Source: a bacterium (GTDB lineage: Bacteria; Lernaellota; Lernaellaia; JACKCT01). From it: DNA of 64,000 nucleotides. Under the pieces are notes generated by a model. The model was not told where the DNA came from. It did no database searches and was given only the letters and a program-made list of their open reading frames with translations. A program made the translations under genes and the position numbers. Positions within the stretch are counted from its first letter, which is position 1. Every line of letters begins with the position of its first letter. Of this stretch, positions 27,904 through 58,681 are shown piece after piece. The DNA is taken from NCBI GenBank assembly GCA_019912885.1, contig JAIOHV010000080.1, positions 1 to 64,000 on the forward strand, in the 5' to 3' direction.

Positions 27904-30537
27904 TCACGACCCCCACTGCGACGGGTCGAGAACGATATCGCAGTTCACGAACGGCTGGCCCGCGGTGTTGATGAACGGCGAGGCGCAGTACTGAAGAATG
28001 AAGGCCATCTCCGGGAATCGGACGGCGCGGTCCTCGCCGTCGTTGCGCGTCGGCTCGAACGGATAGACGCCGTCTCCCACGGACTCGTCCCACAGATCGT
28101 GATACGGCCACGCGCCGTAAAAGTCGGCGGAGTACGAATACTCATCGACCAGCAGGCGCGTCTCGTCGGCGGTCAGCGGCAGGCCCGCGGCGGCGGACGC
28201 GGCGAGAAAGCCCGCGTAATCCGCGTCCCATTCCAGGTTTGCCGCGCGGCCGTCCGCGTCGTTCATGATGTCGTTCGCGCGCGTCGCGAGGCCTTCGATC
28301 AGGTCGTGCGCCATGTCGTTTTCGCCGGCGACAAGGGCATTTTCGACGGCGGAGATGTGGAAGTAGCGGATGATCGCCCAGTTGTAATAGTGCTGGATCG
28401 TCGCGATGAGATCGTACAGCCAGCCGATTCCGTTGCCGCAGTCGTTTTCGAGCGCATCGCCATAGCCGATGAACGCGCTCGAGATCTTCGCGGTGCACTC
28501 GCCGTTCGGCACGAAAGGCTCATAGAGCACAAAGCTCGCCAGATCCGCGACGATCCCGTTTTCCGCGATCGGCACGTACGCGTTGCCGTATTTGTCCTTG
28601 GTGCGAATGTGGTATTCCGAATCGACAATGTCGCGCGAGAAATCCCGCAGCTTCTTGAGCGCCTGTGCGGCCGCGGCCTTCACATCCGCATCGGGCGCGT
28701 CCTGCGCCGCGTACATCAGCGGCACGGCGACGCGCATGATGTGCGGCACGTCATCCTTGCTGCGCATGTTGCGAAGCCAGATCGGCCCCCAGTGCGGGTT
28801 CGTGTCGTTCGGAATCGTGTGCGCGTTCCAGTCGTATTTCTCCTGCTGCTTGACGGGATCGTAATCGACGACGGCGTGCCGCCCGTCCTCCGTGTACTCG
28901 TGATTGACCGTGAACGGCGTGCGCGGCATGAGGTCCTTTTCCGGGTCCTCGTCGTCGTAGTCCATCGACAGGAACAGCGCGTCGATGCCCTTGCTGTAAT
29001 CCTCCACGAGCCGCGCGAACATCGGGTCGCCGCTCGCCAGATAGCCGCCGACCGCCGCGCCGAGCAGCTTGCCCAGGCGGATCATCAGGTTGTCCGCGCC
29101 GCCGACGTGCGCGAACGTCACCGTGTCGCCGCTTTTGGTGACCGTCGTGTCCTGCCAGTAGAGCTTGTATTCGGGATAGCCGTTGCCGGCCGCGGTATCG
29201 TCGTAGCCGTGGCCGATCCACGTCAGGCGCTCCCAGAAAAACGAATCCTTCCAGAAGCCCGTGATCTTCGTCGTGAAGTCGTCGATTTCCTGCTGCGTCA
29301 GCGGCGTGCCGGCCGCGGGGCGCGTGAACGAAAACGGCAGCGAGGTCGGCAGGGCTTTCGGCGCCGGCGCGCCGGCTTCAACGGGCCGCGGAGCATCCGC
29401 CGGCGTCGCGATCGCCTCGCCCGGCAGCGTGCGCACCAGGCGGAATCCGAGCAGGCGCCAGTTGTAGCCAGGCTGATGTCCGCCGCGCCACGCGGGGCGC
29501 TGGCGCACAGGGGCATACCAGCGATAGCCGCCTCCCTTCGCTACGCGGAAGTGCCCGCCGGCCGCGCCGGTCGGATCGGTCGCGTCTCCGGAAACATCGG
29601 ACTCGTACCAGTCCCACGTCCACTCGAGCACGTTGCCGATGACGTCGTACAAGCCCCAGTCGTTCGCCTGCTTTTTCGCGACGGGGTGCGTCGTGTTCTT
29701 TCCGTTGAAGCAGTACCACGCGATCGCGTCGACGTTCGGATCGACCGTTTCGCATGTGTGCGACGTGATCTCGCCGTTCGGAAGCGCGGTCGTCGATCCG
29801 GCGCGCGCGGCATACTCCCACTCCGCCTCGGTCGGCAGGCGGAAGCCTTCGCACTCCTGGAGCGTCGCCGCGTTCAGCGTGACCGTCGCGCTCCAGACGC
29901 CGCCCTTCGTGGCGCAGTCGGCCACGCCGTCCACCTCGTCTTCGTTGTCGCAGACCACGTCGTCGAACGCGAAACAAGGGTCATACCCTTCCTGCGCGGA
30001 GAGCTGATTCGCGTACACGAGCGCGTCAAACCAACTGACCTGTTCCACCGGACGCAGGGGGCTGTCGCCGTAAACCGGAAAGTTCGCCGGGTCAAAGCCC
30101 GACAACGTGCGGAATTGCTCTTTCGTGACCTCCGTCTCGCCGATCTCGAACGCGCGACTGATCGTCACCGTGCGCTGCGCTTCGTCCGCGTCATGTCCCG
30201 GCTCGATCGAAGGGCTGCCCGCGAGAAACGCGCCCGCCGGTGCGTACACGAATCCTTCCGTCGTCGGAGGGATGTCGTCATCGTCCGCGTCGTCATCGTC
30301 CACGTCGTCGTCGATATCGTCGTCATCCGCGTCGTCATCGTCGGTGTCGTCATCCAGATCGTCGTCGCCCGCGGTATCGTCGTCATCGCCGGTATCGTCA
30401 TCATCGACGTTCGGAAGATCGCCGGTATCGTCGTCGTCATCGTCGTCGCCGCAACTGCACGACGCGCCGAAAACGCCCACGAACGCGAGCGCGAAAAGGG
30501 TGAGCAACAAGGTCAACCTGCGAGCCGTCATGGACAT
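27904..30537 (-). CDS. Asp-tethered lipoprotein: SUMF1/FGE-like domain plus C-terminal helical domain
   Basis: 877 residues from ATG at 30537 (GAGG six bases upstream; ATG at 30531 is an alternative). Signal peptide with lipobox G-A-S-C27, then S-C-G and an Asp-rich tether at 31-89 with runs of three to seven Asp. Residues about 95-375 form a FGE-sulfatase (SUMF1/DUF323) domain with R-L-P-T-E-A-E-W-E-Y and a C-terminal GFRLVRT. The region that in true FGE holds two catalytic Cys reads KGGGYRWYAPVRQRP, so it is not formylglycine-generating. Residues about 430-877 are an unassigned, Trp/Tyr-rich, mainly helical domain, possibly an alpha/alpha-toroid enzyme. Predicted outer-membrane or surface lipoprotein. 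Confidence 0.85.
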   Translation of the reverse strand: MSMTARRLTLLLTLFALAFVGVFGASCSCGDDDDDDDTGDLPNVDDDDTGDDDDTAGDDDLDDDTDDDDADDDDIDDDVDDDDADDDDIPPTTEGFVYAPAGAFLAGSPSIEPGHDADEAQRTVTISRAFEIGETEVTKEQFRTLSGFDPANFPVYGDSPLRPVEQVSWFDALVYANQLSAQEGYDPCFAFDDVVCDNEDEVDGVADCATKGGVWSATVTLNAATLQECEGFRLPTEAEWEYAARAGSTTALPNGEITSHTCETVDPNVDAIAWYCFNGKNTTHPVAKKQANDWGLYDVIGNVLEWTWDWYESDVSGDATDPTGAAGGHFRVAKGGGYRWYAPVRQRPAWRGGHQPGYNWRLLGFRLVRTLPGEAIATPADAPRPVEAGAPAPKALPTSLPFSFTRPAAGTPLTQQEIDDFTTKITGFWKDSFFWERLTWIGHGYDDTAAGNGYPEYKLYWQDTTVTKSGDTVTFAHVGGADNLMIRLGKLLGAAVGGYLASGDPMFARLVEDYSKGIDALFLSMDYDDEDPEKDLMPRTPFTVNHEYTEDGRHAVVDYDPVKQQEKYDWNAHTIPNDTNPHWGPIWLRNMRSKDDVPHIMRVAVPLMYAAQDAPDADVKAAAAQALKKLRDFSRDIVDSEYHIRTKDKYGNAYVPIAENGIVADLASFVLYEPFVPNGECTAKISSAFIGYGDALENDCGNGIGWLYDLIATIQHYYNWAIIRYFHISAVENALVAGENDMAHDLIEGLATRANDIMNDADGRAANLEWDADYAGFLAASAAAGLPLTADETRLLVDEYSYSADFYGAWPYHDLWDESVGDGVYPFEPTRNDGEDRAVRFPEMAFILQYCASPFINTAGQPFVNCDIVLDPSQWGS

Positions 30538-30649
30538 CCCTTCCCTCGTAAACGTGCGCCAAACGCGCGGACGGTTTGATCGAGAAGCTATCGTCAAGCA
30601 AACGCGCCGCTTGCGATGGCCTCTTTTCTCTTTCCTCTTTTCTCTTTCC

Positions 30650-31210
30650 TCAATCGGCCTTCACGAATTTCGCGACGACAAGAGCGATGAGCGCCCACGT
30701 CGATGCGTAGAACACGAACTGCGTGATCCAGTAATCCCAGACGTGATGGTACCAGACGGGAAACGAGATCGCGATCGCGAACGAGCCGAATATGCCGACA
30801 AGCGTCGTAAATTTCCAGCGCGCCGCGAAGGTCGGCAGCGACGGCGCGGCCATGCGGACTGGCACGGCCAGAAGCAGCGTCGATACGATGAAATGCAGGA
30901 AGCCGAAGACGTACGTGCCAGGAGCGGCGGGGTCGAATCCGCCCTGCGTCAAAAACACCTGCGCGATCGGGCCGCGCAGCGTGCGTTCGTGCATCGCTTT
31001 CATCGCTTCTTCGGTGTCCTCGGCCGGCATGCCCGGCACGAAGTACACGCCGTCCGGCGCGCCGGTGTCGCGTAAATAATTCTGCACCGCTTCTTCGTCG
31101 GGGAAGGAGCCGATGGCCATGTTGGCAAAGGGCAGGGCCATCCACCAGATGCTGCCCCAGATCATGCCGGTCACCCCACCCAAAACGCACGCAATCGCAA
31201 TGCCTTTCAT
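30650..31210 (-). CDS. Hypothetical four-TM inner-membrane protein
   Basis: 186 residues with TM segments at about 3-25, 100-117, 133-151 and 160-181 and a periplasmic loop (about 30-98) rich in acidic residues. GGAG lies 5 nt before the ATG. No family recognised; the G-x-x-W-G-S-I-W-W-M-A-L-P TM1 pattern resembles small DUF membrane proteins. Its position, 110 bp downstream of the divergently ordered msrA with an octamer array between, suggests a separate transcript. Confidence 0.6.
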   Translation of the reverse strand: MKGIAIACVLGGVTGMIWGSIWWMALPFANMAIGSFPDEEAVQNYLRDTGAPDGVYFVPGMPAEDTEEAMKAMHERTLRGPIAQVFLTQGGFDPAAPGTYVFGFLHFIVSTLLLAVPVRMAAPSLPTFAARWKFTTLVGIFGSFAIAISFPVWYHHVWDYWITQFVFYASTWALIALVVAKFVKAD

Positions 31211-31240
31211 ATTGGCTCCCGAATGATGGCGACGACCTGC

Positions 31241-31328: not shown

Positions 31329-31331
31329 TCA

Positions 31332-31805: not shown

Positions 31806-31853
31806 GGCTAGCTCCTTGCTTCTGCAGCGCGATCACCGTTGCCCGACGCGCGA

Positions 31854-31907: not shown

Positions 31908-33539
31908 TCAGCATCCGCATCCATCGTCATCGTCATTGTCGTCGTCGTCCGTAGCATCGTCGTCACCGGCGTCGTCATCGGCCGCATCGTCATCGTCGCT
32001 CGTATCGTCATCCGCCGCGTCGTCGTCGCTCACGGAGTCGTCGTCCGTCGAGTCGTCATCATCGTCCGAATCGTCGTCCGTCGCGTCATCGTCGGTATCG
32101 TCATCGACCGTGTCGTCATCGGCGCTGTCGTCATCGGCGGAGTCGTCGTCGTCATCGTCGTCGCCGGTCAGGTCGTCGTCGCCGAGCGGTCCCGCGTCGC
32201 CGAGGATTCCATAGTACACCGCGTACCAATAGCTGAGCAGGTAATCGAGGCTCGGCCCGGTTTCGGTGGGTGTATCGGCTTCGGAGCACGCGATGTGATA
32301 CGGGCTGCGCTCCCACAGGTGTGAGGTCCAGCAGCGGTCGTCCACCTCGTGCGCCTCGGCCGTCTGCGGGTCAATGTCGAAAATGTCTTCCAGCCAGGGG
32401 TACTGCGACAGGAAATTATCGGCCCACACCGAAAACGGATCGAGCGGCAGCACGGAGCAGTCCACGTGCCGCTTGTAGTTCGGCGGATCCCAGAAAACGG
32501 TCAGCCCGTGTTCGATGTCGTCGGCGATCGCGTCGAGTTCATCCTGGTCGCAATCCCCAAGACGAAGGCATGTCTGGATGTAGATCGCGTCGAACAAAGC
32601 GGCGTGCGTTCCTTCGACCATCGATCGGACGTTGACGTTGAAAATGCGGTTCAGGTGTTCGAGCCGCTCGCGGTCCGGCCACAGGCGGTGGATCGCGTTC
32701 CACACCGGGTGGTTGTTGATGAACGCGAAATACTCGAAGTACTTGTTGAAAAACGTGAAGGTCGAAAACCACATCAGGTTCTTGACCTTCTCGTATTCCG
32801 AATCGAGCAGCGCCCAGTACGCCGGATCGCCGGTCACGTGCGCGACTTGCAGGATGATCGACAGGCGGATGTCGTGCCCGATGCTCGACGCGGGCCATGT
32901 GTCGCCCCACGGGTCGATGATCGTCCAGTTGTTCGCGACGAGCGTGTCGATCACCTCGCGGAAGTCCGCCTCGATCGTGGCGCGCATCGCGGCGTCGTCC
33001 ACCAGGTCGTGCGCCCAGGTCTGGCTCCAGAACCAGGTGATGTATTTGTCGCGCGACTGCCGCCCCACCCAGAACGCGCCCGCGTAGTCCCCCTCGCCGG
33101 GGATCTTGTTATCGGAGCCCTCGAACTCCACATTCCACGGCGCCTCGTCCGGCGCGACGTAGCGTGCGATGTAGCCCGGGTCGCCGGTGACCTTATGGAC
33201 GTGGTGGAGATACTCCGCGATGCGCAAAACCTCGGCGCGCGCGTCGGCCGCGCCGGTGACGGCGTAACGCATCGCCTGCGTCACGAGGTAAAAGCCCGTC
33301 CAGTCCTCGCTGTCGCCCGCGCCTTTGGTGCGCAAAAGCTCCGTGCGCGTTTCGTCCGTGAAGATGCGATCCGACACGCCGCCCATCCCGCCGCTATGCC
33401 ACTGGCGCAGAAAATCCTCGTAGTCCGCGGTCTTGGCCACGAGGTACGGGTCGACGCCGGTTTGGGCGAAGGCCGCGGGGGCGAGCGCGAAGAAAACGGT
33501 CGCCAGAGCCGCAAAAAAAATCGCTTTCGAATTGTTCAT
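31908..33539 (-). CDS. Secreted protein with C-terminal Asp-rich tail ending GCGC
   Basis: 543 residues from ATG at 33539 (AGGAATCG upstream). Cleavable signal peptide (1-25, APAAFAQTG). Residues about 28-460 form one helical, Trp/Tyr-rich domain without a recognised family; repeated paired helices resemble an alpha/alpha toroid (as in polysaccharide lyases or glycosidases), a cautious suggestion. From about residue 466 the chain is almost only Asp with Ala, Ser, Thr and Val for about 75 residues, and ends D-G-C-G-C. No transmembrane segment follows, unlike known C-terminal sorting tags such as MYXO-CTERM. The cysteine end is shared with genes at 40524 and 55201. Confidence 0.75.
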   Translation of the reverse strand: MNNSKAIFFAALATVFFALAPAAFAQTGVDPYLVAKTADYEDFLRQWHSGGMGGVSDRIFTDETRTELLRTKGAGDSEDWTGFYLVTQAMRYAVTGAADARAEVLRIAEYLHHVHKVTGDPGYIARYVAPDEAPWNVEFEGSDNKIPGEGDYAGAFWVGRQSRDKYITWFWSQTWAHDLVDDAAMRATIEADFREVIDTLVANNWTIIDPWGDTWPASSIGHDIRLSIILQVAHVTGDPAYWALLDSEYEKVKNLMWFSTFTFFNKYFEYFAFINNHPVWNAIHRLWPDRERLEHLNRIFNVNVRSMVEGTHAALFDAIYIQTCLRLGDCDQDELDAIADDIEHGLTVFWDPPNYKRHVDCSVLPLDPFSVWADNFLSQYPWLEDIFDIDPQTAEAHEVDDRCWTSHLWERSPYHIACSEADTPTETGPSLDYLLSYWYAVYYGILGDAGPLGDDDLTGDDDDDDDSADDDSADDDTVDDDTDDDATDDDSDDDDDSTDDDSVSDDDAADDDTSDDDDAADDDAGDDDATDDDDNDDDDGCGC

Positions 33540-33859
33540 CGATTCCTCAAAGTCAATGCCTGTTTCGCGCGACGTCATCCTGAGCGAAGCGAAGGATCGG
33601 GCCGTACCTTGCTGACGGCCACGCTTTCCGCAAACGGCCACGCTTCATCCGGGGCGAAGCCGGATCCTTCGGCTCGCTGCGCTCGCCTCAGGATGACGAT
33701 TCCACGCGACGTGAAGGAACGGACATCCTGATTCGCAGCGTCGCAGAATAGCGGAAACCGCGAGTTCGAGCACCACGCTCGCTTGACAACCCCTTCGCCG
33801 CGCGGCACACAACCCGGTCGCCGTATCGCGCACTTTCGCGCCGGCAAACGGGGGCGGGC
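33540..33859. repeat. Intergenic region with inverted copies of the stem-loop repeat
   Basis: 320 bp without a gene. 33574-33598 is a reverse-orientation copy of the ATCCTTCGC repeat; 33662-33697 is a longer forward variant with extra GGCTCGCTGCG. Between them ACGGCCACGCTT occurs twice (33616 and 33637). The last 150 bp have no clear signal besides the esterase start region. Confidence 0.8.
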
Positions 33860-34633: not shown

Positions 34634-34638
34634 AATTG

Positions 34639-40437: not shown

Positions 40438-40523
40438 GGGCAAGCGCGTTTGCCGTTTGCCGATGCAATGGCCATTTCGCATTCCGTGGTATTCTTCCGC
40501 GATTCAAATTCCCGGGGGTGGCC

Positions 40524-44624: not shown

Positions 44625-45431
44625 ATGGATGCGCGGATGATCGGGACGATTCAACGCGCGATGGCGCTTTTTGCCGTCGCGCTTTCGGTTTTTGCGTTTG
44701 TTTTCGTGGCCAGTTGCGGCGACGACGACGATGACGATGACGCCGACGATAATTCGGATGACGACGCCGATGACGTGACGTGGGTCGCGCTGACAGGCGG
44801 CACGTTCCTCATGGGCTGCAAGGACGAGGACCAGTGGTGCGAAATCGGCGACGGCGAATTTCCGCAACACGAGGTGACGATTGGTCCGTTCGAGCTGATG
44901 GCGACCGAAGTGACGCAAGAGCTTTACGCCGAAATCACCGGGCTCGAGCCGAGCTACTTCGAGGACTGCCCGCAATGCCCCGTCGAAAACGTCACCTGGG
45001 ATGACGCGGTCGCCTTTTGCGAGCAGCTTGGCGGGCGCCTGCCGACCGAAGCCGAGTGGGAATTTGCCGCGTGGGGCGGCGTGGATACGCTGTATTACTG
45101 CGGCAACGACGAGCAGTGCGTTGACGACATCGCCTGGCACTCGCAAAACTCATACGGAAAAACGCACCCCATCCGCCAAAAAACGCCGAACGACTACGGT
45201 CTGTACGACATGCTCGGCAACGTCTTCGAGTGGGTCGAGGACTGGTTTGACGCGGAGTACTACGCGAACTCGCCGGCAGAGAACCCGACCGGCCCCGCGT
45301 CGGGCGAAACGAAAGTGATTCGCGGCGGAAGCTGGCTTTTTCATTACCAGGGACCGCTTCGTGCGTCGTGCCGCGAGGCGAATGATCCGGATACTCCGCG
45401 ATCGAACGTCGGGTTTCGCTGCGCGCGCTGA
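44625..45431 (+). CDS. Asp-tethered lipoprotein with SUMF1/FGE-like domain
   Basis: 268 residues. Signal peptide with lipobox V-A-S-C31, then G and an Asp-rich tether (33-52). Residues 54-268 are a single FGE-sulfatase domain with R-L-P-T-E-A-E-W-E-F, N-D-Y-G-L-Y-D-M-L-G-N-V-F-E-W and a final G-F-R-C-A-R. The segment for the catalytic Cys pair (R-G-G-S-W-L-F-H-Y-Q) has none, so it is not a formylglycine generator. It follows the subtilase-like gene by 36 bp and may be co-transcribed. Ribosome site AAAGGA close to the ATG. Confidence 0.88.
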   Translation: MDARMIGTIQRAMALFAVALSVFAFVFVASCGDDDDDDDADDNSDDDADDVTWVALTGGTFLMGCKDEDQWCEIGDGEFPQHEVTIGPFELMATEVTQELYAEITGLEPSYFEDCPQCPVENVTWDDAVAFCEQLGGRLPTEAEWEFAAWGGVDTLYYCGNDEQCVDDIAWHSQNSYGKTHPIRQKTPNDYGLYDMLGNVFEWVEDWFDAEYYANSPAENPTGPASGETKVIRGGSWLFHYQGPLRASCREANDPDTPRSNVGFRCAR

Positions 45432-45506: not shown

Positions 45507-45507
45507 G

Positions 45508-46992: not shown

Positions 46993-47018
46993 CCGGTGTA
47001 TTTCGCAAGGAGAACACG

Positions 47019-48122
47019 ATGAAAAAATGGCGCTTGACCCTCCTCTTCGCCGCGGCGCTCGCCGCGACATTTCTGGCTCCCGCCGGTTGCGGTTGCGGCG
47101 ACGACGACGATGACGACGCGGGCGACGGCGCGTTTGAGGACGCCGAAATCATCGCGAACTACGCGGACAATGTCGTCATCGCGACCTACGCCTGGCTTGC
47201 GGACGAGGCCGCCGGATTGAACCTCGCCGTCATCGCGTTCGGCGACGATCCATCGGACGGGCTTCTCGAGGCCGCGCGCGAGGCTTGGGTCGATACGCGC
47301 ACGCCGTGGGAGCAGAGCGAGGGGTTCCTGTTCGGCCCGGTGGACAGCCTGGGGCTCGATCCCGCGCTCGATAGCTGGCCGGTCAACCGCAACGACCTGG
47401 ACGCGGTGCTTGCAAGCGATGATGAACTGACCGAGGAGTACGTCGCGAATCTCGATCCGACGCTCAAGGGCTTCCACACCATCGAATATCTGTTGTTCGG
47501 CGAGGGCGGCGCGAAGACCGCCGGCGATTTTACCGAACGCGAATTTTCCTATCTCGTGGCGGTCACCGCGGATCTCGCGGGTGCGGCGGACACGCTCGAA
47601 AAGAGCTGGACCGAAGGCGTGGACGGCGCGGAGCCCTACCGCGACGTTTTCGCGACGGCCGGCCAGGAGGGCAACACCGCGTATCCATCGCTCACCGCCG
47701 CCGCGCAGGAGATCGTGGACGGCATGGAGGGCATCGCGGACGAGGTCGCCAACGGCAAGATCGCCGATCCGTTCGACAACCAGGATCCGACGCTCGTCGA
47801 GAGCCAGTTCAGCTACAATTCGCTGCGCGATTTTTCGGATAACATCCGTGGTATTCTTAATGCCTACACGGGAGGCGTGCCCGGCGCGGGAACATCGGGC
47901 CGCGGGCTTTCGGATTTCGTCGCCGAGCGCGATCCGGACCTGGACGCGCGCGTGAAGCAGACGATCGACGAGGCCATCGATGCGCTCGCGGCGATTCCGC
48001 ATCCGTTTCGCGACGCGATCACCGATGAAGACGCAGCCGACGAGATCGTGGCCGCCCAGGAAGCGATTCGCGCACTATTTCAGGTCATCGAACAGGATCT
48101 CCGCGCGCTGGTCATAGGGTAG
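47019..48122 (+). CDS. Asp-tethered imelysin-family lipoprotein
   Basis: 367 residues. Lipobox A-P-A-G-C24 then G-C-G and D-D-D-D-D-D. Residues 45-360 are an imelysin (M75/IrpA/EfeO-like) domain: the motifs W-E-Q-S-E-G-F-L-F-G and G-F-H-T-I-E-Y-L-L-F-G (GxHxxE metal site) are intact. Imelysin-like proteins bind iron or other metals at the cell envelope and are usually iron-regulated. Paired with a porin upstream and a dihaem oxidoreductase downstream. 26 bp after the porin stop with AAGGAG at its start. Confidence 0.92.
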   Translation: MKKWRLTLLFAAALAATFLAPAGCGCGDDDDDDAGDGAFEDAEIIANYADNVVIATYAWLADEAAGLNLAVIAFGDDPSDGLLEAAREAWVDTRTPWEQSEGFLFGPVDSLGLDPALDSWPVNRNDLDAVLASDDELTEEYVANLDPTLKGFHTIEYLLFGEGGAKTAGDFTEREFSYLVAVTADLAGAADTLEKSWTEGVDGAEPYRDVFATAGQEGNTAYPSLTAAAQEIVDGMEGIADEVANGKIADPFDNQDPTLVESQFSYNSLRDFSDNIRGILNAYTGGVPGAGTSGRGLSDFVAERDPDLDARVKQTIDEAIDALAAIPHPFRDAITDEDAADEIVAAQEAIRALFQVIEQDLRALVIG

Positions 48123-48200
48123 AAACGCAAAACGACAAACTCGCCGGCGAGTGTCGGCGACGCGAGCCCGCTTTCGGCTTGAACCGGAGGGAGAGAAAAA

Positions 48201-49587: not shown

Positions 49588-50913
49588 ATGCGTGCCGCGG
49601 TCCTCCTTTTGTCGCTCGCTTTTCCTTTGCTCGCCGGCTGTTCTTGTGGTGACGACGATGATGACGACGGCGCCGCGTTCGACGACGACTCGGCGTTGGA
49701 CGACGATCAGGATGACGATGATACGTCAGGCGATGACGACAGCGATGACGACGCTGCCGCAGACGACGACGACGCCGATGATGATAATGCGATTGACGAT
49801 GACGACGCCGACGACGACGACGCCATCGACGACGATGCGGGAGACGACGACGCCATTGATGACGATGCGGTCGATGACGACGCCGTCGATGACGATACCG
49901 GAGACGACGATGCGGTTGATGACGATACCGGAGACGACGACACAACGCCCGCCGCGCTTGCGATCGATTCCGTCGATCCCGCGGCCGGCGGCGCGTCGGT
50001 AGCGACGCTCGTCACGATCGAAGGCGATGGTTTTATTGCCGGGATCGAGGTGTACGTCGGTACGGAGGCGGCGACCAACATCGTCGTCGTGTCCGCGACC
50101 GAGTTGCACGCGACCTTCCCGCCGATCGAACTCTCGCGGCGCGGCGCGAAGGACGTGCGCGTCGTGCGCGGAGCGGATGAGGCGACGCGGGCGGGCGGAT
50201 TCGAATATCTATTCGACGAAGATCCTGTTGTCATGGTGCATGGCTTGTGGGGGCAGGGCGCTGATTTCGACAAGATGAAGGAGCGATTCGTTGCCCTCGG
50301 ATATCCGGCCGATCAGCTTTTCGCCATCGACTTCACGGACGATCAGGCGTCGAGCCGCAAGAACGCGCGCTACGAGCTGCCGCCGTTTGTCGATGACGTG
50401 CTGGCGCAAACGGGCGCGGAAAAAGTCGATCTGATTTCGCACAGCATGGGCGGGCTCGCCGCGCGGCTCTACATCAAGACGTACGGCGGCGCGGACAAGG
50501 TGCGCGACTACGTTTCCATCTCCGGCACGCAGCACGGCAACAACCTGTCGTGCCCGTTCATCTGGCTCGACGACGGTCCCGCGGAGCTTTGCCCCGCCTA
50601 CGCGAACCAGAATCAGAGCGAAAACGAGGTGCAGTGGGAGCTGAACGGCGACCCGGATTCCGCGGACGTGGACGAAACACCGTTCGGGCGCGACGAGAGC
50701 GGCGGCCTGTCGTATCACGCGCTCTACACGACCGCGGATCTCATCATCTCCCCGTCGACGTCCGGGTGCCTGGATCAGGCGTCGCGCAATGACTGCACCT
50801 CGCCGATCAACCAACGCGTCGACGGCGTCGGTCACATCGCGATGGTTTACGACGCGGGCGTGTTCGATGATGTCGCGGCCTGGGTGCGCGCATACAACGT
50901 CAGCAAGCCATAA
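49588..50913 (+). CDS. Asp-tethered lipoprotein: IPT/TIG domain plus lipase-type alpha/beta hydrolase
   Basis: 441 residues. Lipobox L-L-A-G-C18, S-C-G, then an exceptionally long Asp tether (21-118, about 98 residues with D-D-D every few positions). Residues 121-208 form an IPT/TIG Ig-like domain (SVDPAAGGASVATLVTIEGDGF). Residues 212-441 are a lipase/EstA-type hydrolase with oxyanion V-H-G-L-W-G, nucleophile S-H-S286-M-G-G and a likely catalytic His in V-G-H-I. It would be held away from the membrane by the tether, suiting extracellular esters. Convergent with the next gene, 1 bp apart. Confidence 0.88.
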   Translation: MRAAVLLLSLAFPLLAGCSCGDDDDDDGAAFDDDSALDDDQDDDDTSGDDDSDDDAAADDDDADDDNAIDDDDADDDDAIDDDAGDDDAIDDDAVDDDAVDDDTGDDDAVDDDTGDDDTTPAALAIDSVDPAAGGASVATLVTIEGDGFIAGIEVYVGTEAATNIVVVSATELHATFPPIELSRRGAKDVRVVRGADEATRAGGFEYLFDEDPVVMVHGLWGQGADFDKMKERFVALGYPADQLFAIDFTDDQASSRKNARYELPPFVDDVLAQTGAEKVDLISHSMGGLAARLYIKTYGGADKVRDYVSISGTQHGNNLSCPFIWLDDGPAELCPAYANQNQSENEVQWELNGDPDSADVDETPFGRDESGGLSYHALYTTADLIISPSTSGCLDQASRNDCTSPINQRVDGVGHIAMVYDAGVFDDVAAWVRAYNVSKP

Positions 50914-50914
50914 G

Positions 50915-52345
50915 CTACTCGAACACCACGATCGCCACGCCTTCGCTTTCGCTTTTGATCGTCGGCACCATCATCGTGCGTCCGTTGAATTCGAACGCCA
51001 CGGAGCGGCGCGGCGTCGTCGGGATGCGCAAGTCGAAACCAGCGAGAAATGCAATCACGTCAAACACCGCCGCCGGTTGCAGGTCGCTTTCGTCGTTGAA
51101 GTTCACGTCGAACAGGAAGATCGCGATCGCGGTTTTTTCCGCGGGCGTCAGCTCCTCGGTCGAGATCTCGTTGCCGTCAACGACAAGCGAATCGCGGCCA
51201 TGCACGATCGCCTGGTTGGTCGTGAAATTCGCGAACACCGCCTCCTCGTCGGAAAATTCGATCACCGAGAGGATGATCCCCGGCAGGCTGCCCGGATCGG
51301 GGAACGTGCGGATGTAAACAAGCGGATTCGAGGCGGCAAACGGCTCGCGATAATAGTGAACGGGAATCTCCGGCGAGCCCTCGTTCCAGGCGGCAAACTC
51401 GTGCGGCACGCCCGCGCGCACGGGCATTGGCCCGAATCGCCCTTCCGGATCCGACACGGTCGCCTCAACGAGGCTCGCGCGCTCGCCCGTCGCCGGGTCA
51501 AGCTCGTACACACGCACCTCGTATCCGTAACGCGGCGTGTTCGTGCCCAAAACGAGCACACGCCCGTTGACGACGATCTCGTCTTCCGGCTGGATTTCGG
51601 CGGTCGCGGGCGCGGCGCCGTCGTGGAAAAACGTGTACATCAGTTCGAACGTTTCCTCGCTTGTCGCCACCTGCATGTGATCCTTGCCGTCGATCTCGAC
51701 GTTCGTCGCGCCGTCAAGCGGACGCACGCCAAGGATCAAGTCGTCCTCGGAGGCGATCGTCATCGTTGGTACGCCGTCGGGCGCCGCGCCGTAGTCGAAC
51801 GACGCCACGTGAACGTAGTGAGCGACCTTCGCTCGATGATCCGCCGATCGGAGATAGTCGTACGACAATCCGCCGCCCGCCGAATGGCCGACCAGGTCGA
51901 TCGCCTCGAAGCCCGAGTCGGCAAGCACATCGTCGATGAACGCGGCAAAGCGCGCCTGTTCCGCGTCCTCGTCAAACGCGAGCGTGTTCCAGTCGAACGC
52001 GTGAAGGTTCCGCGGGCAGTGGCCGTTTTGGGAAAATCGCATCAATTGATTGGCGAACGTGTCGCCCGCGGCCAGAAACCCGTGCGCGAAAACAATCGGG
52101 CGCGCATCCGAGACGCACTCCTGCGAATCGTCGTCGTCGCCGTCGTCGTCGTCATCCGTCGCGTCGTCGTCCGTCGCATCGTCATCGTCCGCGTCGCCGT
52201 CGGTGTCATCGTCCACCGCGTCGTCGTCCGGCGGTGTCGCATTGTCATCGTCGTCGTCATTGTCACCGCACGAGCAACCGGCGACGGCAAACGACATCGC
52301 GGCGAGGATCAACAATATCGCGACCAACAACGTCTTACGGTTCAA
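50915..52345 (-). CDS. Asp-tethered lipoprotein with alpha/beta hydrolase domain
   Basis: 476 residues from TTG at 52345 (AAGGAG seven bases upstream, inside the end of the previous gene). Lipobox V-A-G-C, then S-C-G and an Asp/Ala/Thr tether of about 50 residues. The hydrolase has P-I-V-F-A-H-G-F and G-H-S-A-G-G-G (Ser nucleophile), an H-M-Q-V-A late His region and a beta-rich C-terminal domain of about 220 residues. Likely an extracellular esterase, lipase or PHB-depolymerase-like enzyme. It overlaps the upstream gene by 11 bp. Confidence 0.84.
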   Translation of the reverse strand: MNRKTLLVAILLILAAMSFAVAGCSCGDNDDDDDNATPPDDDAVDDDTDGDADDDDATDDDATDDDDDGDDDDSQECVSDARPIVFAHGFLAAGDTFANQLMRFSQNGHCPRNLHAFDWNTLAFDEDAEQARFAAFIDDVLADSGFEAIDLVGHSAGGGLSYDYLRSADHRAKVAHYVHVASFDYGAAPDGVPTMTIASEDDLILGVRPLDGATNVEIDGKDHMQVATSEETFELMYTFFHDGAAPATAEIQPEDEIVVNGRVLVLGTNTPRYGYEVRVYELDPATGERASLVEATVSDPEGRFGPMPVRAGVPHEFAAWNEGSPEIPVHYYREPFAASNPLVYIRTFPDPGSLPGIILSVIEFSDEEAVFANFTTNQAIVHGRDSLVVDGNEISTEELTPAEKTAIAIFLFDVNFNDESDLQPAAVFDVIAFLAGFDLRIPTTPRRSVAFEFNGRTMMVPTIKSESEGVAIVVFE

Positions 52346-53282
52346 GGCCAAGCTCCTTCAGGTATTTTTCGCCGCCCTCGGCGTTCAGTTTCCAGTAAGG
52401 CAAGCGCGTCGAACCGCGCAAAATTGCGGCCTCGCCATCCGTTGTCTCCCATTTCACGACGCGGTGCGGCCACGCGGTCTCGACATACACCGTCGTCGCC
52501 GGCCCGACTTTCGGAGCAAACGTCACCGCGCGCGCGGAGAATTCACCCGCGGGCGTCTTGATCTTTGTCGCCTCCGATTCGCGCGTGATCGTCGCGGTCG
52601 TGAACGCGAGCGGCGTATGCGTCACGCGGGCGTGTTCAGAAGAGGGCAGATAGGGCACGTCGCCCGCCGGTGTGTCGCCGAAAAAACCGCGTGCGGCGAT
52701 CAGCAACTCGTCGCCGAGGATTGCGTTCGCCGGGCGGGGAATCGGCTTTGGCTCGTGCGACTCGCCGAAGAAGTAGCTGCGCACGCGGTGGCGCAATTCG
52801 TCGCCGCGGGCATTGATCTCCGCGTACACGTGCCCGCACCACTCCTGGCTTGAGAAACTCGATTTCACGAAAGCGCCGCGCGGCCGGCCATTTTGCGCCT
52901 CGAGCGCGACAAACGCGCTTGTCATCATGTTGTAGTCGTAGATTCCGGTTTGAAAATCCTTCACGAGATTGAGCTTCATGACCGCCAGGCGATCGTCCGG
53001 CGGGATCTGCGTCGTCTCGGCCTTCACCCGCTCCTTTTTGGAAAACGTCTCCGTCACGAAGATCGCCACCGCGCGCCCGTTTCGACTCTCCCCGTAGCGC
53101 GGATAGGTCAGGCCGTAGCCGCATAGCTCCGCCTTGCCGTCGCCCCAGTGCGGCCAGAACTTTTCCGAAAATTCGTCCGCGCCGGCGGCGCCGGTCGCCA
53201 ACAAGAAGGCAAGGGCAACGGTTCCGCGAACCGCCCATCGCGCGCTCGAAACCCGGGCGCCGAAATTCGCCAAAATCTTCAA
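52335..53282 (-). CDS. Periplasmic DUF3108-like protein of unknown function
   Basis: About 315 residues. A likely signal peptide (17-35: VALAFLLATGAAGADEF). The rest is beta-rich, with Y-G-E-S-R-N-G-R-A-V-A-I-F and a C-terminal W-x-x-x-x-G-E, resembling outer-membrane-associated DUF3108 or lipid-binding proteins. The start is uncertain: the 5' end lies in a heptamer array and the best codon is TTG at 53282 or 53273, with GAGG from the array as ribosome site. It is coupled to the hydrolase gene. Confidence 0.55.
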   Translation of the reverse strand: MKILANFGARVSSARWAVRGTVALAFLLATGAAGADEFSEKFWPHWGDGKAELCGYGLTYPRYGESRNGRAVAIFVTETFSKKERVKAETTQIPPDDRLAVMKLNLVKDFQTGIYDYNMMTSAFVALEAQNGRPRGAFVKSSFSSQEWCGHVYAEINARGDELRHRVRSYFFGESHEPKPIPRPANAILGDELLIAARGFFGDTPAGDVPYLPSSEHARVTHTPLAFTTATITRESEATKIKTPAGEFSARAVTFAPKVGPATTVYVETAWPHRVVKWETTDGEAAILRGSTRLPYWKLNAEGGEKYLKELGLEP

Positions 53283-53307
53283 TCTTCAATCCTCAATTTT
53301 CAATCCT
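53280..53307. repeat. Heptamer array of four units joining two genes
   Basis: CAATCTT, CAATCCT, CAATTTT, CAATCCT. On the minus strand it gives the stop codon of the sulfatase gene (53300-53302) and lies across the start of the DUF3108-like gene. Confidence 0.9.
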
Positions 53308-54958
53308 CAAGGGGATCGTCCTCGTCGTAGCGGCAAAAGCGCCCGGCGCAATGCCGCAGGCGCTCCAGAATATCCGAAAACAGCGTGCGCTGCGCCACGC
53401 GCCCGGCGGACATGTCCTTGTGCAGGCTTTCGATCTGATACGGATCGACATCCAGGTCGTAGAATTCGTATTGCGTCTGGAACCACGGCGTAACGGTCTC
53501 CACGTACAGGGCGCCCGCCGGCAGGCCGGTTCGCGGAAATTCGCGCACGCCGGCGTGGGTCGCCAGGTCGCCGAACGGATCGTTGATCGCCCAGTGCTCC
53601 ACCAGAAGCCGCCGCCGCGTCCATTCCGCGTCGCCGGCCCCAAGCAGCGGCGCAAGAGAGCGCCCATCCATGTCGATGGGGTCCTCCAGCCCGGCGTATT
53701 CCAGGATCGTCGGCGCCAGGTCGTTGTTCAGGACGATCTCCTCGCGCTCCATTTCCTCGACGCCTCCGGGCGGCCGAATCGCCAGCGGGACGCGGATCGA
53801 TGGCTCGTACGGCGCGCCTTTTTGCGGAACGCGGTGCTTTCCGAACTGAAACCCGTTGTCGGATGCGAAGATGAACAGCGTGTTCTCAAGCCGCCCATAT
53901 TCCTTGAGCGCGCTTCCGACCGCTCCGATGAGATCGTCAACGGACAAGAGCGCCTCCTGCCGGTCGTTGAACGCCCGGGCGACGCTCGCGCGATCCTCGT
54001 CGCTGAGTTTGGGCCAGAAACGGATCGGAAACGGCTTGTCGCTCATGTCCTCCTCGCTCACCGAGGGTGGCCACGCCGGCTCCAGATTCAGGACGCCCGT
54101 GTGCCGAGGCGCGGGCCGGATGGAAAGCGCATAAACGTCGTGCATGGTGTTGCGCTCGTCGTCCCACCAGTCATCGAGAAACTCGTTGTGCGGCGCCGTG
54201 ACGGAAACCCAGAGAAACATCGGCTGTCCCGGCCGCGCGAGCGCCGACTCGCGGATGAAATCGACGGCGCGCTCGGCGAGCACGTCCGTCTGGTAGTCCT
54301 CCGGCGCGTCGCCGTAATACACGACGCGACCGTTGTCGTTCAGCTTGTAGTTGTAAACGAGATACGTCGAGGGATCGATCAGCACCTGCCAGTCGTCCCA
54401 TCCGGGCGGAACGTACGTCGCGGATGTCGATGCGCCGTAGCCGTTGAGATATTTGCCGACCAGGCCCGTTCGATATCCGCCGTCTTGAAGGATCGTCGCA
54501 AGCGTCACCTCGTCCTCGAATTTGTTCACGCCGCCCCGAGGCCGGTTGTTGTTGAGCACACCGTGGTTGTGCGAGTACTGCCCCGTCAGGAACGTCGCCC
54601 GCGCCGGGCAGCAAATCGCGTTGGTCACAAACGAATTGAGAAAATTGACGCCCCGGTCCGCGATGAACCGCTCCAGATTGGGCGTCAGTCCGTTTCCGCG
54701 AAGCTGGTCGTAGGATTCAAGCTCCTGGTCGTCGGTCATGATGACGACGATATCCGGCCGGGGATCGGGCGGCGTGTCGCGATCGTCGTCGGTTGGAGCC
54801 GGGGTGGCCGGCGCGTCGTCATCGCCGTCATCGCCGCTTGAGCTGTCCGTGCATCCGGGCGCCGTCGCCGCGACGATCGCGATGAAGGCGATGGAAACGG
54901 CAAGCGCAAAAAACACACGAATCCGCGCGCCCGGTCGAGCGCCGAAGGGGGCTGGCAT
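53300..54958 (-). CDS. Cys-type sulfatase lipoprotein
   Basis: 552 residues from ATG at 54958 (GGAGGG ten bases upstream). Lipobox T-A-P-G-C36 followed by S-S-S-G-D-D-G-D-D-D and a short Asp/Pro linker. Type I sulfatase fold: D76-D77 metal site, the formylglycine motif C116-C-P-A-R120 followed by A-T-F-L-T-G, and later N-D-L-A-P-T-I-L-E-Y. C116 must be converted to formylglycine by an FGE or anSME encoded elsewhere. Substrate is probably a sulfated polysaccharide or mucin; the closest family resemblance is N-sulphoglucosamine-6-sulfatase type. Confidence 0.92.
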   Translation of the reverse strand: MPAPFGARPGARIRVFFALAVSIAFIAIVAATAPGCTDSSSGDDGDDDAPATPAPTDDDRDTPPDPRPDIVVIMTDDQELESYDQLRGNGLTPNLERFIADRGVNFLNSFVTNAICCPARATFLTGQYSHNHGVLNNNRPRGGVNKFEDEVTLATILQDGGYRTGLVGKYLNGYGASTSATYVPPGWDDWQVLIDPSTYLVYNYKLNDNGRVVYYGDAPEDYQTDVLAERAVDFIRESALARPGQPMFLWVSVTAPHNEFLDDWWDDERNTMHDVYALSIRPAPRHTGVLNLEPAWPPSVSEEDMSDKPFPIRFWPKLSDEDRASVARAFNDRQEALLSVDDLIGAVGSALKEYGRLENTLFIFASDNGFQFGKHRVPQKGAPYEPSIRVPLAIRPPGGVEEMEREEIVLNNDLAPTILEYAGLEDPIDMDGRSLAPLLGAGDAEWTRRRLLVEHWAINDPFGDLATHAGVREFPRTGLPAGALYVETVTPWFQTQYEFYDLDVDPYQIESLHKDMSAGRVAQRTLFSDILERLRHCAGRFCRYDEDDPLED

Positions 54959-55102
54959 CGGCGGGGTACCCTCCATGAAACGAAGCAAAACATGAAATCG
55001 TTCCGCATGGCGGGCGACGCGATCGCCCGCGGCGGCGCAACGAACCAAATAATGCGTTTCGGGGGCCCGACGCCGCGCGCGGCGCGTTGCGCTCCCCGAC
55101 CC

Positions 55103-55127
55103 GATAATGATAAACGAGAATGATATC
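55103..55127. promoter_or_regulatory. Fur-like box of GATAAT-type hexamers
   Basis: GATAAT, GATAAA, (C), GAGAAT, GATATC. The first 19 bp match the Fur consensus at 13 of 19 positions. It lies in the divergent region, 73 bp upstream of the Cys-rich secreted protein gene and 145 bp upstream of the sulfatase gene. The rest of 54959-55200 has no clear gene or repeat. Confidence 0.45.
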
Positions 55128-55200
55128 GATGGGAAAATCTCGCGGCGAGCCCGGCGTGCGCCCCGTGGGTGCCGGAAACCGGCGCCGCACCATGTGAGGG

Positions 55201-57444
55201 ATGAAAACAATGATGCGCGGATTTGGCTTGACGGCGCGCCTTCGTGCCGGACGGGTGTTGCTGGCTTGCGCGATATTGGTCTTGTCGTTCGCCGCGCCGC
55301 GCGCCGCCCAGGCGCAGGCGGACGTTCCGCGAACGGTCTTCGCGATCGCGTCCATCAATTCCGGGCCGCTGCGCTATCCGATTCATGTTTTCGCCATTAA
55401 CGGCAACCAACTCGAATTCTCCGACGAGTTTCGCCCGGACGTCCGTGACGGCGGCCCCGTCGGGCTCGCGGTCGATCCGTATTACGAGCACCTTTTTGTC
55501 ACCTACGAATTCAGCAATAAGGTCGACGCCTACGACGCGCGCGACGCCACGCCGCTCGGGCAGATCACGCTGTCGGGGACAAGCGACCTATCGGGCATCG
55601 ACGTGCTCGAATCGCGCAACCAGCTTTTCGTCGTCGATCGCACCGAAAAGGATATTTTCGTCTTCGACACGCAGACATTCGCACCGGTCACGACGTGGGT
55701 GCTGCCGACCGGCCAGGGCGCCTACGATATCGAAGTCTTCGATGACTATCAGGGCGCGGATGTCATCTTCGTCACCGACGGCACGAACACCGTCCGCTGG
55801 TACGACGTCGATACGCACCAACAAATTGGATCGGCCACGCAGTCGCGCATCGCCAAGAGCCTTGGCGTCAACGTGGAAAGCGACGCGGTGATCTTTTCCG
55901 CCTCGATCGGCGTTCATACCGGCGACACGCCGCCGCAGGCCGGCGGACACGATTATCTGGTCAAGTACAACACGGCGAACTCGCAGCAGAACGAGGTTGA
56001 TCTCGGGGATTCCGGCCGCGGCATCGCGGTGAACGCGCACGACAATGTCGTGTACGTTTCGATCGGCCGTTACAGCACCGGCATCTTCCAGTGGGTGCCC
56101 GCGAGCGTCCGCACATTCAACATGACGACGCTCGCCGAAGTCGACCGCGATGACCTGACCTCGCAGTCGTGCCCCGGCAATGTTGAATGCAGCCCGACCG
56201 ACGTCGTGGTGACGCGCGTCGCCTACGGCAGCGAGCTGACCAAGGAAGTCCTCTCGCATCCTTCAGGCGAATTCAACATCGGCGCCAACGTGACATTCCG
56301 CGTCACGATCCGCAACGCGGGCGCGCGCGCGATCGACATCATGCCGTTGACGGATACCTACGATACGACGCAATTGCGTTACGTCAGCTCGAGCCCAGCG
56401 TCGAACGACAACATCGATGATGGCCGGATCAACTGGAGCGACCTGACCGCATCGTTCGGCAACAACCTCGCGCCGGGCGCGTCATTCCAGGTTGACGTCA
56501 CTTTCGTCGCCGACCCGGACGCCTGCAACGATTTCGTCGACGGGACGAATCTCTCCTCGATGACAAACGCGAAGGACGATCTGGGCGGCGCGGTCGCGGA
56601 TGCGGCCGGCACGGTCGGGTATCGCATCCTTTGCGATTGCACCACGGACAACGATTGCACCGATGGTGTCTTTTGCAACGGCGCGGAAAAATGCATCCTC
56701 AATGAGTGCCAACCCGGCACGCCGCCTTGCACGGATGACGGCCTGTATTGCAACGGCGCCGAAAACTGCAACGAGGCCACCGACTCGTGTACGAACTCGG
56801 GGAACCCCTGTTCGAACGACGGTGTGTTCTGCAACGGTACCGAAAGCTGCGTCGAATCGACCGACTCCTGCGCGAGTTCCGGCAATCCATGCGGCGACGA
56901 TCTCTTCTGCAACGGCAACGAGACCTGCAACGAGAACAGCGACCAGTGCGTGTCGGGTACGCCGCCGTGCGCGGATGACGGCCTGTTCTGCAACGGCGTC
57001 GAATCCTGCAACGAAGCGTCGGATGCCTGCGCCTCGTCCGGCCCTCCGTGTTCGGATGACGGCCAGTTTTGCAATGGCACCGAGTCGTGCAACGAGGACG
57101 CCGATTCCTGCCCCTCATCCGGCGATCCCTGCTCGGACGACGGCCAGTTTTGCAACGGCGCCGAATTCTGCGACGAGCTGGCGAACGAGTGCCGCAGCAA
57201 CGGCAATCCGTGTCCCGAGGGACAGGCCTGTCTCGAGGACGCCAACACATGCGAGCCGCCGGATTTCGGCGATGACGACATTGACGACGACGTGACGCCC
57301 GATGATGACGTGGACGACGATCCGCCCGCGTCCGACGACGACGACGAGCAGGACGCCGACCCGAACATTCCGACGGGCGACGAGGAAGAAGGACCCGGTT
57401 GGCCGGAGGGCGATGTGACCGGGGGAAACTGCTGCGGTTGCTGA
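55201..57444 (+). CDS. Secreted beta-propeller protein with Cys-rich repeats and NCCGC C-terminus
   Basis: 747 residues. Signal peptide ends A-A-Q-A-Q-A (about 41). Residues 45-340 are a beta-propeller-like (YncE-like) domain; 355-465 a DUF11-like domain (NVTFRVTIRNAGARAIDI). Residues about 490-675 are seven tandem units of about 25 residues, each with D-D-G-x-F-C-N-G-x-E-x-C-N-E and a fixed Cys pattern. The end is Asp/Pro/Glu-rich and closes V-T-G-G-N-C-C-G-C. The Cys ladders probably form disulphides in the periplasm or outside. GAGGG precedes the ATG. Confidence 0.82.
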   Translation: MKTMMRGFGLTARLRAGRVLLACAILVLSFAAPRAAQAQADVPRTVFAIASINSGPLRYPIHVFAINGNQLEFSDEFRPDVRDGGPVGLAVDPYYEHLFVTYEFSNKVDAYDARDATPLGQITLSGTSDLSGIDVLESRNQLFVVDRTEKDIFVFDTQTFAPVTTWVLPTGQGAYDIEVFDDYQGADVIFVTDGTNTVRWYDVDTHQQIGSATQSRIAKSLGVNVESDAVIFSASIGVHTGDTPPQAGGHDYLVKYNTANSQQNEVDLGDSGRGIAVNAHDNVVYVSIGRYSTGIFQWVPASVRTFNMTTLAEVDRDDLTSQSCPGNVECSPTDVVVTRVAYGSELTKEVLSHPSGEFNIGANVTFRVTIRNAGARAIDIMPLTDTYDTTQLRYVSSSPASNDNIDDGRINWSDLTASFGNNLAPGASFQVDVTFVADPDACNDFVDGTNLSSMTNAKDDLGGAVADAAGTVGYRILCDCTTDNDCTDGVFCNGAEKCILNECQPGTPPCTDDGLYCNGAENCNEATDSCTNSGNPCSNDGVFCNGTESCVESTDSCASSGNPCGDDLFCNGNETCNENSDQCVSGTPPCADDGLFCNGVESCNEASDACASSGPPCSDDGQFCNGTESCNEDADSCPSSGDPCSDDGQFCNGAEFCDELANECRSNGNPCPEGQACLEDANTCEPPDFGDDDIDDDVTPDDDVDDDPPASDDDDEQDADPNIPTGDEEEGPGWPEGDVTGGNCCGC

Positions 57445-57466
57445 CGAATCCGGTTAGATTGCGGGT

Positions 57467-58681
57467 ATGAACATCTCAACGAACGATCGAGCGCGCGCAT
57501 CGGCCTGGCCGGTGCGCGCGTTTTTTCTGGCGCTCGTTATCGGCATGTTGATCGCGTCCGCGCCGGCCTGCTCCGGCTGCGGCGATGATGACGCTGATGA
57601 TTCCGGCGACGATATCGCTGATGACGATATAGCGGACGACGACACGACCGACGACGACAGCGCGGCGGATGACGATTTCGACGACGACATGGATGACGAT
57701 TTCGATGACGACGCGGCGGACGACGATTCGGTCGGTGACGACGATATTGACGACGACATGTCGGACGACGACGCGCTGGACGACGACACGGGGGACGACG
57801 ACGCCTCCGATGACGATTCGGCGGATGACGACTCCGCGGACGACGACACGGGCGACGACGACACCGGCGACGACGACGTCAATTGTCCCGAGGTGACGGG
57901 GAACCTCGCGGAGCCCTCCACGCAGTTCGTCCCGGCGGGCACGTTCGCCATGGGCAGCCCGGACACGGAACCCGGTCGCCTGGATTATGAGACGCAACAT
58001 CAGGTGACCCTGACGCGCGCCATGCGCGTGATGACCTACGAGGTGACGCAGTCGCTCTGGAAAGGCGTAATGGGCGACACGCCGCCGTTTCAGGTGAAGT
58101 GCGGCGACAATTATCCCGTCGGAACGGTAACCTGGTACGACGCGGTCGAATTCGCCAACGCGCTCTCGGCGGCGCTCGGATACGATGCGTGCTACACGGA
58201 AAATCGAGACGGCACGTATTCGTGGGACGTCGATTGCGACGGCTTCCGCCTGCCCACGGAAGCGGAGTGGGAATATTTCGCGCGCGCCGGCAGCACCACC
58301 GCGTTCACGAACGGCGAGATCACGGAGGGCAATTGCGCGGACCCGCTCCTGGCGCTTGTCGGCTGGTACTGCGGCAATTCCGGCTTCACGATCCACGAGG
58401 TCGGCGGCCTCGCCGCGAACGCCTTCGGACTTCACGACGTTCACGGCAACTTGTGGGAATGGGTGTGGGATAGCTGGTTTGAGGAATTCGGCTACATCTA
58501 CGCCGATGGACCTGCCACCGATCCAGCCGGCGAGGAAGGCGATCTCATCTTCATTTATCGCGGCGGCAGCATGTTCGCGACATCCATCAACAACCGCCTT
58601 GCGTATCGGCGTCCTTCATTGCCGACGCATCTCGACGAGGATAACGGGCTGCGTCTCGTGCGCACCGTGATTCCGGATTGA
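57467..58681 (+). CDS. Asp-tethered lipoprotein with SUMF1/FGE-like domain
   Basis: 404 residues. Lipobox S-A-P-A-C35 then S-G-C-G and an Asp-rich tether from 40 to about 142 built from D-D-D-x units (A, I, T, S, F, M, V). Residues about 155-404 are an FGE-sulfatase domain with R-L-P-T-E-A-E-W-E-Y and L-H-D-V-H-G-N-L-W-E-W. The catalytic Cys positions read Y-R-G-G-S-M-F-A-T-S, with no Cys, so it is not a formylglycine generator despite the neighbouring sulfatase. It begins 22 bp after the Cys-rich protein. Confidence 0.88.
   Translation: MNISTNDRARASAWPVRAFFLALVIGMLIASAPACSGCGDDDADDSGDDIADDDIADDDTTDDDSAADDDFDDDMDDDFDDDAADDDSVGDDDIDDDMSDDDALDDDTGDDDASDDDSADDDSADDDTGDDDTGDDDVNCPEVTGNLAEPSTQFVPAGTFAMGSPDTEPGRLDYETQHQVTLTRAMRVMTYEVTQSLWKGVMGDTPPFQVKCGDNYPVGTVTWYDAVEFANALSAALGYDACYTENRDGTYSWDVDCDGFRLPTEAEWEYFARAGSTTAFTNGEITEGNCADPLLALVGWYCGNSGFTIHEVGGLAANAFGLHDVHGNLWEWVWDSWFEEFGYIYADGPATDPAGEEGDLIFIYRGGSMFATSINNRLAYRRPSLPTHLDEDNGLRLVRTVIPD

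Follow-up and report, generated by a model that had tools for sequence, protein, structure and literature searches.

The window analysed here is a stretch of 64,000 nucleotides (contig JAIOHV010000080.1, positions 1 to 64,000) from a draft genome placed here in the bacterial phylum FEN-1099, for which the name Candidatus Lernaellota is proposed. It encodes exported proteins with cysteine and a tract of aspartic acid (Asp) residues near one terminus. In one set the cysteine belongs to an N-terminal lipobox; in the other the Asp tract stands at the C-terminal end and is followed by Gly-Cys-Gly-Cys or a close variant and the stop codon. This C-terminal tail is the subject of the present analysis, in which seven draft genomes of the phylum (G000-G006, G000 being the genome of the window) were compared. 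Three proteins of the window possess the tail.

31908..33641, minus strand: helical exported protein of unassigned family, with type-I signal peptide and no lipobox; ends D4-GCGC-stop
31908..32190, minus strand: Asp tract and GCGC-COOH of the above protein; GCGC and stop at 31908-31922
40518..44588, plus strand: exported S8-family subtilase with FG-GAP repeats and the C-terminal tail; lacks a lipobox
44451..44588, plus strand: Asp tract and GGCCGC-COOH of the subtilase; ends D7-GGCCGC
55201..57444, plus strand: exported protein with cysteine-rich repeats and a DUF11-like stretch; no lipobox, C-terminal tail
57259..57444, plus strand: Asp/Glu-rich stretch and GGNCCGC-COOH of the above protein

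All three tails described in an earlier note on this DNA were thus found, with their ends GCGC, CCGC and NCCGC and no lipobox, but in the third protein a looser Asp/Glu-rich stretch lies upstream of the NCCGC end and is not a run touching the cysteine. The helical protein gave a low-confidence alpha/alpha-toroid model resembling carbohydrate enzymes. A structure search with it found no match at E<0.001, and identification of this cargo from its structure was rejected because the resemblance is of low confidence.

The tail is a frequent feature of the genome. The nucleotide pattern GACGACN{0,30}TGYGGNTGYTRR, which encodes Asp-Asp, up to 30 further bases and C-G-C-stop, gave 120 overlapping matches in G000 against 1 in the reversed control, and the ends listed represent at least 60 distinct tagged genes. 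The more degenerate pattern GACGAYN{0,30}TGYGGNTGYTRA was found 158, 102, 128, 11, 38, 116 and 83 times in the seven genomes, with 0-3 matches in the controls, so the search of related genomes for Asp-rich CGC ends proposed in the earlier note was positive in all of them. Distinct tagged genes number about 46-60 in the well-sampled genomes (about 46 in G001) and are fewest, about 5-8, in G003. Outside the phylum, 186 genomes were searched with the same pattern and gave 0-3 matches each, which is the chance level. The 9-Mb outgroup genome G034, with three matches, was inspected at its GCGC-stop sites; these are not protein ends and no tails were found. The stricter string DDDGCGC-stop was searched in 84,980 named genomes and occurred three times in one metagenome-assembled genome labelled FR-FEN-1099-1 and four times elsewhere; the matches in Sphingobacteriales, Novosphingobium, Rhodobacteraceae and Bacteroidales are spurious short frames. 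The loci in the FEN-1099 assembly encode homologues of the window subtilase (38.7% over 951 amino acids) and of the helical protein (36% over 417 amino acids), both with the GCGC end kept, and homologues of the subtilase in G001, G005 and FR_14 also keep the tail. From these homologues we infer that the window belongs to FEN-1099. Within the genomes searched, the stand-alone tail is restricted to the phylum. In the open literature searched, no C-terminal tag of cysteine and Asp lacking a transmembrane (TM) helix was found, an earlier in silico myxosortase paper cited by PMC11980579 not being covered.

Residue conservation was analysed in 134 tails from the seven genomes. Position -3 is cysteine in 132/134, -2 is glycine in 130/134 and -1 is cysteine in 123/134, while -4 is glycine (88) or cysteine (28) and -12 to -7 are mostly Asp. 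Rare tails end in CGW, CGN, CGG, CGR, CGS or CSC. The conservation of the C-terminal cysteine in relatives, on which the earlier note had staked its idea, is therefore borne out by these positions and by the GCGC end kept in the orthologues of two window proteins. In family f3 of the phylum the tails are shorter, with N, S, G and E mixed in, which indicates that (G/S)CGC is the constant part and that long poly-Asp is a lineage feature. The Asp codons of the tracts are GAC 632 : GAT 260, a ratio close to the 5621 : 2947 found elsewhere in the genome, and adjacent codons are nearly independent; the tracts are therefore maintained at the protein level. Slippage of a triplet repeat as their source was ruled out by the mixed codons.

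Positions of the Asp tracts were also surveyed in stretches chosen blind to the motif. Among 326 genes of G000, 15 tracts lie near the N-terminus, 10 near the C-terminus and 1 is internal; among 290 genes of G005 the numbers are 28, 4 and 1. Most Asp tracts are thus tied to a terminus, as the earlier note had supposed, though interdomain Asp linkers exist elsewhere. An Asp tract directly after the signal peptide, in addition to the C-terminal tail, was seen in small exported proteins at L111:274-987, L119:285-1484, L119:7942-8739, L079:357-1166, L085:6565-8232 and L039.

The end of the tail equals the signature of MYXO-CTERM (TIGR03901), the sorting signal of surface proteins in Myxococcota; this signature, 'a generic GCGC motif', precedes a TM helix and an Arg cluster (PMC11980579). 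Proteins above the TIGR03901 cut-off are present in 7/7 genomes of the phylum, few in each, and their GCGC is often preceded by the same kind of Asp run; in G000 a tripartite MYXO-CTERM subtilase ends EDGGCGCRAASG-TM-ARR. Short cysteine-rich proteins with full MYXO-CTERM tails are clustered at L201 (G005:C122) and L200 (G002:C25). The stand-alone tails matched none of the NCBIfam models. Stop codons of 89 tagged genes are TGA in 76, TAA in 8 and TAG in 5, and the reading frame past these stops contains no hidden TM helix, except in four cases belonging to the next gene. Recent truncation of longer MYXO-CTERM proteins and stop-codon recoding were ruled out, since no TM helix appears on read-through.

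The relation between tail and lipobox was studied in genes called over sampled stretches of the genomes by a simple codon-bias caller, with signal peptides and lipoboxes assigned by regular-expression rules and not by SignalP. Among 120 full-length tagged proteins, 102 have a type-I signal peptide, 16 have no call and two have a lipobox call, one of them false. Lipobox calls amount to 2/104 among complete tagged exported proteins as against 120/447 among other exported proteins (Fisher p=3.2e-10; sampled stretches). The false call is in L099 and the real one in L084, which has relatives in L195. Conversely, four lipoproteins with a C-terminal Asp tract (L112, L119 and two in L216) all lack the cysteine end. 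Tail and lipobox are therefore alternatives, mutually exclusive save in one family. The earlier observation that no protein has both anchors holds in the window, while elsewhere the family of L084 and L195 departs from it. This family (G001 L084:3552-5963 and G002 L195:3114-5971) is the sole one seen with a convincing lipobox and a CGC tail; its G002 member is split between two neighbouring frames that overlap (3114-3962 and 3959-5971), which may reflect a frameshift.

Homologous proteins were also found to exchange their anchors. The helical protein of the window, which has a type-I signal and the tail, can be aligned along its entire body to the protein at L070:1-1749 of G001 (31.5% over 428 amino acids, E=5e-50), which has a lipobox followed by CGCGDDDDDDD at the N-terminus and no tail. 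Two matrixins, L127 of G002 and L222 of G004, share 34% over 307 amino acids (E=8e-48). The former ends ACGCSVMSGEAGG-TM-RRRC, that is, ACGC-SVMSGEAGG-TM-RRRC, and the latter ends GGGCGC-stop, the stop lying directly past the aligned CGC. The same kinds of protein hence use a lipobox, the tripartite MYXO-CTERM or the bare tail. As an alternative to the lipobox that homologues swap with it, the tail is likely to be a dedicated anchoring signal.

These results bear on the idea that the tail has no function, the Asp repeats having grown by slippage beside a cysteine-rich end that arose by chance. The length of the Asp tract does vary strongly and similar tracts occur as interdomain linkers, but the mixed GAC/GAT codons, the near-constant end of 134 diverse proteins, the conservation across three families and the exclusivity with the lipobox all speak against it. 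Conservation refutes this idea in practice, and its probability is close to nil.

The N-terminal set of the window comprises the following genes.

27904..30597, minus strand: FGE-sulfatase-domain lipoprotein with N-terminal anchor CSCGD7
30265..30459, minus strand: lipobox Cys, CSCG and Asp tract of the above protein
44625..45431, plus strand: FGE-sulfatase-domain lipoprotein; Cys-Gly-Asp7 at 44715, single Cys
47019..48122, plus strand: imelysin (M75) lipoprotein; CGCGD6 at 47088
49588..50913, plus strand: lipase-like lipoprotein with TIG domain; CSCGD6 at 49639, long Asp tract
50915..52351, minus strand: lipase-like lipoprotein; CSCGDND5 at about 52276
53300..55210, minus strand: sulfatase; probable lipobox Cys near 54853, then a short Asp-rich stretch (CTDSSSGDDGDDD)
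57467..58681, plus strand: FGE-sulfatase-domain lipoprotein; CSGCG and long Asp tract from about 57569

A lipobox cysteine after an N-terminal signal peptide is present in the proteins at 27904, 44625, 47019, 49588, 50915 and 57467. The six lipoproteins with an Asp tract listed in the earlier note were all recovered, as was the shorter stretch of the sulfatase at 53300, though the protein at 44625 has a single cysteine and that at 57467 reads C-S-G-C-G. Apart from the anchors, the region 45649-49556 resembles an operon for metal uptake: it encodes, in this order, an unassigned exported protein, the imelysin lipoprotein and a di-haem peroxidase (DHOR) that probably has a lipobox. At 8384-10669, two subunits of cytochrome cbb3 oxidase, with domains COX1 and FixO, are fused in a single protein.

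The earlier note had seen the two sets as mirror images and had suggested one dedicated export or anchoring system reading Asp plus cysteine at either end. Such a system might be, for example, an S-acyltransferase that modifies CxC beside Asp. The mirror is exact in f1, the family of the window, where CxCG-Dn stands against Dn-GCGC, and this speaks for a single system. The string CxCGDDD occurs 82 times in G000 (control 0). Its occurrence in related genomes was confirmed in part, as it is frequent in f1 only (82/33/59 matches) compared with 1/0/5/3 in the other genomes. A second cysteine is found in 21/73 lipoproteins of f1 as against 2/62 in f3, whereas the C-terminal CGC is kept phylum-wide and is just as strict in f3. 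In addition, a canonical lspA-lgt operon is present and accounts for the N-terminal form, which looks like an ordinary Lgt/Lsp lipoprotein. A single system for both ends is accordingly very improbable, while the narrower claim of an anchoring signal is likely. As the CxCG-Dn lipoproteins hold lipid-bearing cysteine, Asp spacer and domain in the opposite order, they would have the same geometry at the membrane. From the sequences, we read the mirror as two anchors of one geometry (membrane, cysteine, acidic spacer, domain), and the likeness in f1 as convergence of the cysteine neighbourhood, not as one machine reading both ends.

Metal binding and disulfide formation are both possible for CxC motifs, and divalent cations are bound by poly-Asp. 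The tail could thus be a crosslinking or metal-binding end, with disulfides or metal chelation by CGC in an outer layer and calcium bound by the Asp tract, and the second cysteine of the N-terminal CxCG form would then share its role. However, the motif is placed at the extreme C-terminus only, is swapped in homologues with a lipobox and with the tripartite MYXO-CTERM, and is missing where a lipoprotein carries its Asp tract at the C-terminus, which makes such a role quite unlikely.

Possible partners of the tail were sought in the seven genomes. A search with PF01790 revealed Lgt paralogues in each genome, about three on average, of which one clade adjoins lspA and the other two, B and C, lie away from it. 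Clade C is located at L166, L172, L162, L170, L173 and L174, and clade B at L171, L165, L163, L164, L167 and L175; a tandem pair of LspA-like genes precedes lgt in G005 (L156:377-1491). Both extra clades are conserved in the phylum outside the lspA operon, except that in G003 clade C is missing and a divergent Lgt (L168) is found in its stead. That the genome with the fewest tails is also the one missing clade C is only a hint from one genome. The two extra paralogues are speculative candidates for the enzymes that would lipidate the tail.

In MYXO-CTERM proteins, cleavage after the cysteine is performed by MrtX and the protein is displayed by the type II secretion system (T2SS); the cysteine is predicted to be lipidated, perhaps by an Lgt-like enzyme (PMC11980579). 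CPBP proteins of the myxosortase core score above the model cut-off in four of the seven genomes (G002, G004, G005 and G006). G003 reaches 98.8 of 100 bits and G000 a weak 66.6. In G001, which is 99% complete, no CPBP protein at all was detected, yet the genome has about 46 tails, so the stand-alone tail seems not to need the protease. A CPBP protease as a required partner is not supported, as it is absent from G001. GspD is encoded in all seven genomes, and gspC-D-E-F are readable in G000. In G006 a tagged-protein gene, L246:5363-7150, ending TGACGC, adjoins gspE-D-C genes.

The presence of a T2SS in every genome would also suit a tail that is an export signal only, in which this or another exporter reads the acidic tail with CGC, and the protein, its cysteine free of lipid, is then set free or stays loosely attached. 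It is further in favour of this possibility that an acidic stretch belongs to the sorting of T2SS-dependent surface lipoproteins in A. baumannii (PMC12802150). But it leaves unexplained the two near-invariant cysteines and the glycine of the last three positions, the exclusion between tail and lipobox, and the match to the signature of MYXO-CTERM, which is an anchor; we therefore think it unlikely.

With moderate confidence, we favour the reading that the C-terminal Asp tract with (G/S)CGC is a surface-anchoring tag that would combine Sec export, cysteine lipidation without a protease and the T2SS. A tagged protein crosses the inner membrane by Sec, as the ordinary signal peptide in its sequence shows. 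In the periplasm its C-terminal Gly-Cys-Gly-Cys would be lipidated on a cysteine, perhaps by one of the two Lgt paralogues outside the lspA operon, although this last point is speculative. No sorting protease would be needed, the tail end being already in the cleaved form, in agreement with the genome lacking CPBP. The Asp tract would serve as a charged spacer and perhaps as part of the T2SS sorting signal. The tail is probably lipidated on cysteine and displayed by the T2SS.

Several observations weigh against this anchoring reading. About 8% of the tails have a last residue other than cysteine, so the last cysteine may be dispensable and the modification may fall on that at -3. The family of L084 and L195 combines lipobox and tail. 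Lipidation of the MYXO-CTERM cysteine is itself still a prediction, and the bare tail has no TM helix to hold it near a membrane enzyme. The link of Lgt to the tail consists of co-presence in no more than seven genomes, and a small number of tails persist in G003, where the third Lgt clade is missing.

A bolder form of the anchoring reading, possible but doubtful at present, is that these are 'reverse lipoproteins', soluble exported proteins that would be lipidated on a C-terminal cysteine by a dedicated Lgt paralogue without substrate helix or cleavage, so that only four residues of MYXO-CTERM would be left, as a tail that dozens of proteins in each genome use. To our knowledge, all Cys-bearing C-terminal sorting tags have three parts and are believed to depend on a TM helix and a protease. 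A tail of the cysteine signature alone would show that neither is essential, and would set the lipidation of MYXO-CTERM apart from its cleavage. It opens a clean test of tail function without myxosortase and of which acyltransferase modifies the tail. For an uncultured phylum, a surface proteome would also come into view, with dozens of proteins in each genome.

Among known systems, the earlier note had taken the export signal of Bacteroidota lipoproteins as precedent. This signal, K-(D/E)2 or Q-A-(D/E)2 near the lipid-bearing cysteine, is linked to surface exposure (PMC5080379), and acidic residues after that cysteine are common to both cases. It is N-terminal only, however, has two acidic residues and needs K or QA, whereas the N-termini of the phylum read C-x-C-G-Dn or C-G-Dn with long Asp runs and show no K/QA rule. 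MYXO-CTERM with its 'GCGC' (PMC11980579) is the better precedent. GlyGly-CTERM with rhombosortase is likewise a C-terminal sorting tag of T2SS cargo reaching the cell surface, but it is tripartite, with TM helix and basic tail and no invariant cysteine, and the tails of the phylum have neither TM helix nor basic tail; the tripartite signal of GlyGly-CTERM, PEP-CTERM and LPXTG proteins is thus not found in them. In InvL and the other T2SS-dependent surface lipoproteins of A. baumannii, the lipid-bearing cysteine is followed by a stretch rich in Asn/Asp or Gly/Ser, and chimeras showed its importance (PMC12802150). This stretch fits the Asp and Gly beside cysteine at either end of the phylum's proteins, and a T2SS is present in both cases. 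Their signal is N-terminal and short, whereas the C-terminal version of the phylum is without lipobox.

The closest likeness is to MYXO-CTERM. Shared are the GCGC signature with its invariant cysteine (G/C-C-G-C at -4 to -1 in most of the 134 tails), a linker before the signature, a type-I signal peptide, occurrence in dozens of proteins per genome and the presence of a T2SS, and homologous proteins of the phylum carry the tripartite or the bare form. The tails differ in that they have no TM helix and Arg-rich tail, the protein stopping at the cysteine, in the long Asp tract before the motif and in the absence of a CPBP protease from G001. Lacking TM helix and Arg tail, two defining features, the bare tails were not filed as MYXO-CTERM members. 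They probably work like its processed form, and we conclude from their sequence features that the bare tail would be a variant of this surface anchor that stands alone, in 'pre-cleaved' form.

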